A DNA stretch of 64,000 nt, taken from assembly GCA_014384565.1 (NCBI GenBank), contig JACNFO010000061.1, forward strand, positions 1-64,000, given 5' to 3'. This document shows, piece after piece, positions 57,462 through 60,805 of the stretch. The translations under genes were made by a program, and so were the position numbers. The notes beneath the pieces are model-generated. The model was not told the DNA's origin. It saw nothing but the letters and a program-made list of their open reading frames with translations, and searched no databases. This stretch comes from Candidatus Pseudothioglobus aerophilus. Its GTDB lineage: Bacteria > Pseudomonadota > Gammaproteobacteria > PS1 > Pseudothioglobaceae. Numbering within the stretch: the first letter of the stretch is position 1; each line of letters starts with the position of its first letter.

Positions 57462-58319
57462 CTAAGAATTGATTAGAAGTCCTGCGAGTTTTTTGATGCT
57501 TTCTTCTTGCTGATTATTTTTTCTATAGATAACTCCAATATCTCGTTTTGCCTTGGTTGAATTCATATCAATGGATATATTGGGGTAATGCCTAAGTATG
57601 CCAAAATCGATTGCCATTTTGGGTAGAAAACTCACACCAATATCGGTATCGACCATAGCAACAAGGGTTGAAATACTGGTACAAGAAAAATCAGAAATAT
57701 GCTGATTTGAAATTTTATTATTTTGTAATATGTGTGACCTCAAGCAGTGGCCCTGCTCGAGCATTAGTAGTGACCCATTATCAATTACTTTAGATTTGCG
57801 TTTTTTATGTTGAATAAAGTAAATTGGGTCAGAAAAGACTTGAAAGCTTTCAATAAAGTTGGGCAATTCATATGGAAAAGCAAATATGGCAAAGTCAATC
57901 TTAGCTTGCTCTAGTTGCTTAAGTAAATTTTCACTGGTATCTTCCTTAAAAGAAACCTTAAGTTTTGGATAAAGCTTACTTAAGTTTGACAAGAAATTTG
58001 GCAGAATATAGGTAGAAATCGTAGGAATTACTCCAATGGTAACTTCAGAATCAAAAAAATCTAACTTTGCAGTACTTAATAAGACATTAATCTCAGCCAT
58101 CACTAATAGAGCTTGTTTTACAACTCGGTTTCCAGTGGCTGTAAAGTGAACGTTTTTATTGTCCCTCTCAACCAGCAGAACTCCTAAGTCGCTTTCAAGT
58201 TTTGATATTCCTGCGCTGAATGTGGAAGCGCTAACAAAGCAATCATCTGCAGCCTTGGAAAAGTGATTCGTTTTTTTTAGTGCAACTAAATACTGTAAGT
58301 TTTTTAGCGAGGGGGTCAT
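57462..58319 (-). CDS. OxyR-like LysR-family regulator with only one of the two redox cysteines in place
   Basis: 285 aa from the ATG at 58319 (MTPSLKNLQYLVALK); an upstream ATG at 58352 adds 11 residues. Winged-helix domain with HFSKAADDCFVSASTFSAGISKLE, then a substrate domain. MLEQGHCLRSHIL matches the OxyR peroxidatic Cys199 context (EEGHCLRDQ), but the resolving Cys nine residues on is Asn here; the next Cys is 21 residues away (DFSCTSIS). Diverges from rubrerythrin across 102 bp, so it probably controls that operon. Confidence 0.8.
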   Translation of the reverse strand: MTPSLKNLQYLVALKKTNHFSKAADDCFVSASTFSAGISKLESDLGVLLVERDNKNVHFTATGNRVVKQALLVMAEINVLLSTAKLDFFDSEVTIGVIPTISTYILPNFLSNLSKLYPKLKVSFKEDTSENLLKQLEQAKIDFAIFAFPYELPNFIESFQVFSDPIYFIQHKKRKSKVIDNGSLLMLEQGHCLRSHILQNNKISNQHISDFSCTSISTLVAMVDTDIGVSFLPKMAIDFGILRHYPNISIDMNSTKAKRDIGVIYRKNNQQEESIKKLAGLLINS

Positions 58320-58385
58320 TTTATATTCGTTTTTTACGGATATTATATACATATTTATTCAATTTATTTATATATAAAGTACTGG

Positions 58386-58391
58386 TATGAT
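58386..58391 (+). promoter_or_regulatory. Extended -10 promoter of the rubrerythrin operon
   Basis: TGG-TATGAT: an extended -10 (TGn) with a 4-of-6 or better hexamer, 30 nt before the start codon. The -35 region (TTTATT) is weak, which suits activator control by the divergent OxyR-like protein. Confidence 0.45.
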
Positions 58392-58421
58392 GATGGCTCG
58401 TTTAACCAATCGGAGGAAGTT

Positions 58422-58841
58422 ATGTCATTAAGCGGAAGTAAAACAGAACAAAGTTTAAAGGATGCATTTGCTGGAGAGTCACAGGCAAATAGACGCTACT
58501 TATATTTTGCAAACCAATGTGATGTTCTTGGTGAGCCAGATATGGCTGCTTTATTTAGATCAACTGCAGAAGGTGAAACTGGCCATGCTCATGGTCATAT
58601 GGAGCATCTCATTGAAGGTGGTGTTGGTGACCCAGGTACAGATATGCCTGCTAAGGAAGTAAGAGAGATGCTTGAAAGTGCTGTTCATGGAGAAACTCAT
58701 GAATACACTGATATGTATCCAGGTATGGCGAAAACAGCAAGAGATGAGGGTTTTGATGAGATTGCTGAATGGTTTGAGACTTTAGCTAAAGCTGAACGTT
58801 CTCATGCAAATCGTTACCAAAAAGCACTAGATAGTTTATAA
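58422..58841 (+). CDS. Rubrerythrin (di-iron domain only)
   Basis: 139 aa ferritin-like four-helix protein. Iron ligands lie in [15 protein letters not shown] (about 15-29), [15 protein letters not shown] (about 50-64), the [11 protein letters not shown] helix (about 90-100) and [14 protein letters not shown] near the end. The C-terminal rubredoxin domain of classical rubrerythrin is absent, so electrons must come from elsewhere, for example rubredoxin at 32325. Reduces H2O2 to water. Excellent ribosome site (CGGAGGAAGTT), implying high expression. First gene of a three-gene set. Confidence 0.93.
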
Positions 58842-58848
58842 AAACTTC

Positions 58849-58875
58849 GTTACCATAGGCTTAGCCTATGGTAAC
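58849..58875 (+). promoter_or_regulatory. Strong 12-bp hairpin between rubrerythrin and the Fe-S gene
   Basis: GTTACCATAGGC-TTA-GCCTATGGTAAC: perfect 12-bp stem, 3-nt loop, starting 8 nt after the rubrerythrin stop and ending 15 nt before the next ATG. There is no U-run, so it is more likely an mRNA-stabilising or processing hairpin, or a partial terminator, that raises rubrerythrin over the downstream genes. Confidence 0.6.
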
Positions 58876-58890
58876 AAATCCTAGGAAAAT

Positions 58891-60195
58891 ATGTCTAAAT
58901 TTAAAGAAGGTAATTTAGAAGCACCAACTCGCCACCCTCTAAATTGGAAAGATGAAGATTTTTATAATGAAGAGTCTCTCAACACAGAATTAGAAAGAGT
59001 ATTTGATATCTGCCATGGTTGTAGACGTTGTGTGAGCCTTTGCAAGTCTTTCCCAACTCTCTTTGATTTGATTGATGAGTCCCAAACATTTGAGGTTGAT
59101 GGCGTTGATAAGGCAGACTACAAGAAAGTGGTTGACCAATGCTATTTGTGTGATTTATGTTTCGTAGCAAAATGCCCTTATGTTCCGCCGCACGACTTTA
59201 ATGTTGATTTCCCACATTTAATGCTTCGAGCAAAAGCAATTCAATTTAAAAAGGGCGAAACAAAACTGTCTCATAAAATCTTAACGTCACCACAAAAAGT
59301 AGGTTCTGTTGCATCTTTGCCAGTAATCTCGCCAATTGTTAATTGGTCTAATAGCAACAAAACAATGAGAAAGGTAACAGAAAAAGTTTTAGGTGTTCAT
59401 GTTGATGCTGTTGTTCCAAAATACCATACCAAAAAACTTTCAAAAATTTTTGTAGAAGATAATTCTTCAAGTAAATTTAAGGTAGCAATTTTTGGAACTT
59501 GTTATGGTGAATATAATGATCCTCAAACAGTTATCGATTTAGTGGATGTTCTAAGGCATAACGGTGTAGAAGTAAAACTCATTAAAAAAACGCAGTGTTG
59601 CGGTATGCCCAAGATGGAGCTTGGTGATCTTGAGGCGGTGGTTAAGTATGCGAATGAAAATATAACGCCACTTATAAAGTTAGTGAATGATGGTTATAAA
59701 ATAATTGCGCCAATACCCTCATGTGTCTTAATGTTTAAAAATGAATTGCCAATGATAATTTCTGAAAATGAAGATATTAGGGCGATATCTAAAGCGTTTT
59801 ATGATCCCTTCGAATATCTATCATTTTTAAAAGAAAGTAACCAGTTTGATAGTAATTTCAAGCCAATTGATAAAGAAGTGCTTTATCAAATTGCTTGTCA
59901 CCAAAGAGTACAAAACATTGGCTCACACACTAAAAGAATTCTGGGCTTAATCCCAGACCTAGATGTAAATATTGCGGAAAGATGTTCTGGGCATGACGGT
60001 ACATATGGAGTCAGAAAAGATACGCATACTTACTCTGTGCAAATTGGAATGCCAGTTGCTAAAAAAATAACTGACACAACCGATTTGGTTGTTAGTGACT
60101 GCGTTATGGCTGGAAACCATGTCGCCCATATTGCTACGCAAGATATAGAATCCATTCATCCAATTAGCTTGGTGAAAATGGCTTATGATTTATAA
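58891..60195 (+). CDS. Fe-S oxidoreductase with two 4Fe-4S motifs and CCG domains (HdrD/GlpC-like)
   Basis: 434 aa. Two cluster motifs: C41xxC44xxC47xxxC51 and C84xxC87xxC90xxxxC95 (the second has one extra residue before its last Cys). A first CCG domain has FGTCYGEYN and TQCCGMPKMELG; the second is degraded (ACHQRV..., ERCSGHDGTYG). This is the build of glycerol-3-phosphate dehydrogenase GlpC or heterodisulfide reductase HdrD. No signal or membrane segment. I recall it as part of a conserved trio rubrerythrin / Fe-S protein / DUF3501. It may pass electrons to rubrerythrin; its donor is unknown. Confidence 0.85.
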   Translation: MSKFKEGNLEAPTRHPLNWKDEDFYNEESLNTELERVFDICHGCRRCVSLCKSFPTLFDLIDESQTFEVDGVDKADYKKVVDQCYLCDLCFVAKCPYVPPHDFNVDFPHLMLRAKAIQFKKGETKLSHKILTSPQKVGSVASLPVISPIVNWSNSNKTMRKVTEKVLGVHVDAVVPKYHTKKLSKIFVEDNSSSKFKVAIFGTCYGEYNDPQTVIDLVDVLRHNGVEVKLIKKTQCCGMPKMELGDLEAVVKYANENITPLIKLVNDGYKIIAPIPSCVLMFKNELPMIISENEDIRAISKAFYDPFEYLSFLKESNQFDSNFKPIDKEVLYQIACHQRVQNIGSHTKRILGLIPDLDVNIAERCSGHDGTYGVRKDTHTYSVQIGMPVAKKITDTTDLVVSDCVMAGNHVAHIATQDIESIHPISLVKMAYDL

Positions 60196-60214
60196 CATAA
60201 ATGAGGTTAATTAA

Positions 60215-60805
60215 ATGCTAACAAGACAAGACTTATTGTCTCTTGAAGAATACGCAGAACAACGTTCAGCTATTCGTTCAGATACTATTCAAACAAAAAA
60301 GCTCAGAGAGGTTAATCTTGGAGAGCATGTAAGGATCTTGTTTGAAAACAAGAAAACAGTCCAGTTTCAGATTCAAGAGATGCTTCGTATAGAGAAAATT
60401 TTTGAGGCTGACGGTATTCAAGAGGAGCTCGATGTGTACAACTCACTTGTGCCTGAGGGGTCAAATTTGAAGGCCACTATGATGATTGAGTATACTAATG
60501 TTGAGGAGCGAACGGCTGCATTATCTAAATTAATCGGCGTTGAAAGAAGCATCTATTTTCAAGTTGGTAATCATGACAAAGTGTTCGCTATTTGTAATGA
60601 GGACATGGATAGAGAAACAGAGGTTAAGACCTCAGCTGTTCACTTTATGCGTTTTGAGTTTGATCAAAATATGATGGTTGATTTTGGATCAAAAGCACCA
60701 GTCAAGGTTGGCGTTTCCCACCCCCATTATGATTATGAAATTATTTTGAATTCGGATACGCAAGAAGCCCTTAATAAAGACTTTAACAATAGCTACTTTA
60801 ATTAA
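60215..60805 (+). CDS. DUF3501 family protein
   Basis: 196 aa, unknown function. LTRQDLLSLEEYAEQRSAIRSDTIQTKKLREV at the start, then FENKKTVQFQIQEMLRIEKIFE and a C-terminal FDFGSKAPV-like VDFGSKAPVKVGVSHPHYDYE. It matches my memory of DUF3501, always found after a rubrerythrin and an Fe-S CCG protein. It has few cysteines, so it is not a cluster carrier. 19 nt after the Fe-S gene; converges on tilS with 6 nt between. Confidence 0.85.
   Translation: MLTRQDLLSLEEYAEQRSAIRSDTIQTKKLREVNLGEHVRILFENKKTVQFQIQEMLRIEKIFEADGIQEELDVYNSLVPEGSNLKATMMIEYTNVEERTAALSKLIGVERSIYFQVGNHDKVFAICNEDMDRETEVKTSAVHFMRFEFDQNMMVDFGSKAPVKVGVSHPHYDYEIILNSDTQEALNKDFNNSYFN

Follow-up and report, generated by a model that had tools for sequence, protein, structure and literature searches.

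A candidate relocated resolving cysteine in an OxyR-type regulator of the SUP05 group

How might an OxyR protein work as a switch when the resolving cysteine of its disulfide has been lost? The question is raised by a LysR-type regulator of 285 aa, encoded on the minus strand at positions 57462..58319 of a 64,000-nucleotide stretch of DNA (hereafter the window) that belongs to an incomplete 1.47-Mb MAG of the SUP05/Ca. Thioglobus group. The initial annotation described an OxyR-like protein transcribed divergently from a rubrerythrin gene and unable to form the usual disulfide, and offered sulfenic acid, S-nitrosation or a disulfide with a distant cysteine as its means of sensing.

The OxyR-like identity is borne out. 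The reading frame starts with the ATG at 58319 (a further in-frame ATG upstream at 58352 is absent from most relatives) and carries the HTH_1 and LysR_substrate Pfam domains (PF00126, E 1.7e-14; PF03466, E 4.4e-23). The top NCBIfam model is OxyR NF008361 (E 1e-51), with a score of 175.9 bits that stays below the cut-off of 329 bits, a strict equivalog threshold for naming and no test of ancestry. Two OxyR models match at E 1e-51 and 8e-44, compared to 2e-31 for the best non-OxyR model, and the regulator scores no better as a member of any non-OxyR group. In the PDB the best match is Shewanella OxyR (7l4s, E 9e-46); matches 1-14 are all OxyR or OxyR2, followed by BenM at 7e-11. By sequence the regulator is thus an OxyR-type LysR protein in the broad sense, and the trees described below are confined to OxyR homologues.

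The GHCLR motif is retained and its cysteine is residue 192 (codon 57744..57746, minus strand), equivalent to the peroxidatic cysteine C199 of E. coli OxyR and present in 36/36 members of the window's taxonomic family and 111/111 other homologues. At the position of the resolving cysteine C208, the canonical feature of a two-cysteine OxyR, the regulator has Asn201 (AAT, 57717..57719, minus strand), so that a C199-C208 bond is impossible, as had been proposed. The sole cysteine after Cys192 is Cys213, 21 residues further on (TGT, 57681..57683, minus strand). In the alignment it pairs with E. coli Ala221 and not with C208, and it is our candidate for a relocated resolving cysteine. Asn201 and Cys213 are invariant in near relatives. 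C27, in the HTH domain, is the one remaining cysteine; with C27, C192 and C213 present, and the latter two both conserved in the family, the protein is not a single-cysteine OxyR of the Deinococcus type. We rejected an alignment shift that would make Cys213 the equivalent of C208, since the anchors GHCLR and TS(I/L) bracket the region unambiguously. Sequencing error, MAG artefact and chance were likewise rejected, as the same residues recur in many independent genomes and Cys213 in 34/36 family members.

The peroxide pocket around Cys192 is retained, with T100, S129, H191, C192 and R259 corresponding to E. coli T100, T129, H198, C199 and R266. The Thr-to-Ser exchange at S129 is also found in 26/111 of the other homologues. 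The pocket residues of SoOxyR and VvOxyR2 are named in PMC8787470.

We aligned 147 non-redundant homologues, 36 from the window's family and 111 from other gammaproteobacteria. In this sample, which the class survey threshold of E <= 1e-25 against the regulator biases to OxyRs resembling it, a cysteine occupies the E. coli 221 position in 34/36 family members compared to 0/111 others (82 with Ala, 25 with Gly), while C208 is retained in 3/36 compared to 106/111. The family column at 208 takes ten states (N, Y, S, Q, D, H, A, I, C and gap), and C221 is kept down to 45% identity. Three family members (L025, L084 and L050) have C199, C208 and C221 together. Two others (L054 and L085) have Phe at 221 and keep C199 alone of the three positions, L054 with an unrelated cysteine at 227. 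Conservation of Cys213 is by itself weak evidence, because 60 of the roughly 200 regulatory-domain columns match it in conservation; several further residues are also fixed in the family alone. A small genome of the family also carries a degenerate oxyR homologue interrupted by 11 in-frame stops (L089, G066:C1:224191-224985).

Outside the family the two events occur separately. A phylum-wide DNA pattern search with OxyR spacing, demanding one exact spacing and hence not exhaustive, recovered C221 in two real OxyR genes from one alphaproteobacterial genus (L216, L217), both retaining C208. A control pattern with Ala/Gly at 221 matched many true OxyR genes and revealed Phe at 208 with Ala at 221 in four alphaproteobacterial genomes (G369, G712, G460, G644). 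Five gammaproteobacterial homologues outside the family (L058, L061, L064, L154, L139) also have neither C208 nor C221. In these alphaproteobacterial and gammaproteobacterial proteins C208 is replaced by Phe, Leu or Trp, and they appear to be natural one-cysteine OxyRs. Given such C208-less and C221-plus-C208 proteins, C208 loss is recurrent and a three-cysteine OxyR arose at least twice. The combination of C199 and C221 without C208 was found nowhere outside the family in the alignment of 147 sequences and the phylum-wide patterns with their one exact spacing. Family searches of viral contigs, together with pattern scans, contributed few further OxyR sequences.

A maximum-likelihood tree built from 48 sequences recovers the family as one clade (support 100/100), and on it the history of C221 comes down to two changes, one gain at the family base and one loss. 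For the losses of C208 we built a larger tree leaving out columns 208 and 221. If regain is barred, there are 5 losses over 6.5 units of family branch length compared to 4 over 58 units elsewhere, a rate about 11 times higher (p = 0.0009). If regain is free, the losses are 2 in the family and 4 elsewhere, which is not significant (p = 0.12). Regain is quite possible for the pair L050 and L051, because their codons at 208 (Cys TGC and Tyr TAT) are one amino-acid-changing base apart. The three-cysteine proteins L025, L084 and L050 look like intermediates, and the order in which C221 was gained first and C208 was then free to be lost is favoured, not proven.

The genomic setting of the regulator supplies a candidate target. 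As the initial annotation stated, oxyR diverges from a gene on the plus strand for a short rubrerythrin of 139 aa (58422..58841; PF02915), which matches NF045767 over positions 3-143 of 194 and lacks the rubredoxin-like C-terminal section of that model. It is followed on the same strand by a GlpC/Hdr-type iron-sulfur protein of 434 aa (58891..60195; PF02754 and GlpC models), which adjoins rubrerythrin in every genus locus, and by a DUF3501 protein of 196 aa (60215..60805; PF12007, E 6e-70, and synteny). Together these three genes (58422-60805) form a cluster conserved across the genus. The back-to-back pair of oxyR and rubrerythrin is found in the window, in 17/17 genus loci (L005-L021) and in L025 and L084. 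Elsewhere in the family the divergent partner is a redoxin-glutaredoxin hybrid (Prx-Grx), identified by Pfam in L048, L051 and L056 and by likeness of the N-terminus in L022, L049, L050, L052, L053 and L087. It is a catalase in L085 and L023, a nitroreductase in L054, and neither hybrid nor catalase in L088. The partner has therefore been swapped repeatedly within the family. In genome G099 oxyR occurs as two paralogues, L048 next to the hybrid and L084 next to rubrerythrin. The catalase reading frame L023:2-1405 has an N-terminus resembling the redoxin-glutaredoxin start, as if catalase had taken the place of that gene under an unchanged promoter. Such exchange among genes that scavenge peroxide speaks for a regulator whose signal is still peroxide or a related thiol oxidant. 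A search of the incomplete host genome found no catalase, and rubrerythrin may accordingly be among its main defences against peroxide; a search of the same genome for the redoxin-glutaredoxin hybrid, run without a positive control, gave no match.

The 102-base intergenic region (58320-58421), suggested earlier as the place to look for DNA binding, does carry a conserved dyad that is a candidate binding site. In the window it reads ATTCG-N7-CGGAT (58325..58341), with one mismatch (CGGA); it has the T-N11-A geometry of a LysR box and the half-site spacing of ATAG-N7-CTAT, and we propose it as the OxyR recognition site. Across the genus the form ATATTCG-N6-(A)CG(A/G)ATAT is conserved. The core (A/T)TCG-N7-CGA(A/T) precedes oxyR in 21/36 family members under a strict definition and 28/36 under a relaxed one, where shuffles lead us to expect 0.07 and 0.65; these counts come from related, non-independent sequences and overstate the evidence. 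The dyad persists across differing partner genes. The sequence ATAG-N7-CTAT is found in 0/36 family upstream regions compared to 19/110 others. We propose no wider regulon, as ATTCGN7CGRAT has a single match in the whole host genome.

Visual inspection of the sequence and of the genus alignment leads us to predict an extended -10 element for the rubrerythrin promoter, TGGTATGAT (58383..58391, plus strand), whose TATGAT is almost invariant in the alignment. The start implied by this element would place the dyad centre about 65 bases upstream, which is about where LysR recognition sites usually lie. With respect to oxyR, the dyad centre is 14 bases away from the start codon, a position that would fit autoregulation.

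Taken together, we favour the explanation that the regulator is a functional OxyR-type peroxide sensor with a relocated resolving cysteine, a C192-C213 pair replacing C199-C208, and we give it a probability of roughly one half. Hydrogen peroxide would oxidise Cys192 in the conserved pocket to a sulfenic acid, with which Cys213 would condense to form an intramolecular disulfide, and so stand in for the lost C208. With its regulatory domain thus altered, the regulator would activate the divergent rubrerythrin gene via the dyad adjoining oxyR, and it probably controls oxyR as well. We judge a relocated cysteine most likely because no other reading accounts at once for a fixed Cys221 and for a position 208 that is free to vary. 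Of the sensing options put forward in the initial annotation, the disulfide with the distant cysteine is hence favoured by a near-invariant, family-wide cysteine that goes together with C208 loss, and S-nitrosation has no particular support. Against relocation stand the OxyRs that have neither C208 nor C221, along with L054 and L085 in the family itself, from which it follows that a second cysteine is not obligatory; so does the alphaproteobacterial genus that has C221 alongside C208.

The same one-cysteine proteins, inside and outside the family, speak for the alternative that we rank second, itself rather unlikely, in which Cys192 acts alone, as a sulfenic acid, a mixed disulfide or a persulfide derived from sulfane sulfur, and Cys213 has no redox role. 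SUP05 bacteria are sulphur oxidisers, to which sensing of this kind would be suited. Sulfane sulfur is a signal for E. coli OxyR (PMC6831875), C199-SSH is a single-cysteine activated state in P. aeruginosa (PMC13295329), and the natural OxyR of D. radiodurans, whose single sensing cysteine has been aligned with C208 (PMC2881104), works via sulfenic acid (PMC2225504). However, C208 is still required for the peroxide response in E. coli and P. aeruginosa and for the sulfane-sulfur response in E. coli (PMC13295329, PMC6831875), and sensing by Cys192 alone leaves unexplained a single gain of C213 that was kept in 34/36 members down to 45% identity. A switch between subunits, in which Cys213 would form a disulfide with the Cys213 or Cys192 of its partner and lock the regulatory-domain dimer, seems improbable to us. 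The position equivalent to Cys213 in Shewanella OxyR is A225 in our alignment, just after a loop (aa 219-223) that together with helix alpha8 forms the regulatory-domain dimer interface (PMC8787470), yet the Ala or Gly usual at this position suggests a packed rather than an exposed site, and the predicted model has a pLDDT below 50 over the region.

AlphaFold reached a pLDDT of 58 for the full-length protein with 14 close relatives and 62 for the regulatory domain alone with 17 sequences (below 50 over fragment residues 81-165); in both models the pLDDT is below 50 across the whole second subdomain that bears the cysteines, where the geometry is unusable. The first subdomain agrees with OxyR, as does a fold search, which recovered OxyR folds at an rmsd of about 10-11 A, too loose to give distances. 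In known structures, C199 and C208 of reduced Neisseria OxyR are 18.4 A apart, and E. coli L224, three residues past 221, is among the residues packing on C199 (PMC2881104); this second finding speaks for the relocated cysteine.

It is also conceivable, at similarly long odds to the switch between subunits, that Cys213 is a structural Ala/Gly substitution fixed by ancestry in a protein that has lost peroxide sensing and is constitutive or answers another signal. Because C221 was gained a single time, its link to C208 loss rests on one lineage, and several other residues are likewise fixed in the family alone. The position of E. coli A233 is Thr in the regulator (residue 225, 57645-57647) and Met or Thr across the family; the changes A233T/V render E. 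coli OxyR constitutive, and the set point of the regulator may accordingly differ. A loss of sensing is at odds with the invariance or near-invariance of Cys192 and its pocket, and with partner genes that still serve peroxide scavenging.

How does a relocated cysteine compare with known systems? Both the sequence comparison and the fold search give Vibrio vulnificus OxyR2 (5b70) and Shewanella oneidensis OxyR (7l4s) as the nearest relatives with solved structures; they share the two-domain layout and the peroxidatic pocket, but retain the canonical resolving cysteine, with Ala at 221, where the regulator has Asn and Cys. E. coli OxyR provides the best curated family model, and its C199, H198, T100 and R266 are kept; the regulator differs in lacking C208, in having Cys at 221 and Ser at 238, in its score under the curated cut-off and in a dyad core of TTCG/CGAA instead of ATAG/CTAT. 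Deinococcus radiodurans OxyR (PMC2225504) is likewise a natural OxyR without the C199-C208 pair, but has one cysteine in all, whereas in the regulator C192 is accompanied by a conserved C213. Cysteine pairs other than C199-C208 are known from further LysR regulators (PMC11975290): LsrB of Agrobacterium is likewise a redox regulator that uses such pairs (C144/C273 and C236/C244), but this four-cysteine protein is a separate LysR protein of Rhizobiales, while the regulator is an OxyR by sequence.

A search of literature largely outside the subscription journals returned no OxyR with a replacement resolving cysteine and no Thioglobus OxyR. The loss of C208 is already known and recurrent; what appears to be new is that a replacement cysteine became fixed. 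We tentatively put forward, with slightly less than even confidence, that this is the first moved resolving cysteine in OxyR, in which C221 came first, C208 became dispensable and was lost repeatedly, and three-, two- and one-cysteine intermediates live on in one family.

It is debated whether OxyR needs its disulfide or whether single-thiol forms suffice (PMC6831875). Ready-made test proteins for this debate are offered by a family whose natural OxyRs have three, two or one of these cysteines and mostly stand beside peroxide-scavenging genes. Sulphur oxidisers of the SUP05 group are abundant in oxygen-poor seas. Our comparison suggests that the thiol switch of their regulator was rewired during evolution and, if true, it would be an example of a thiol switch rewired without loss of function.
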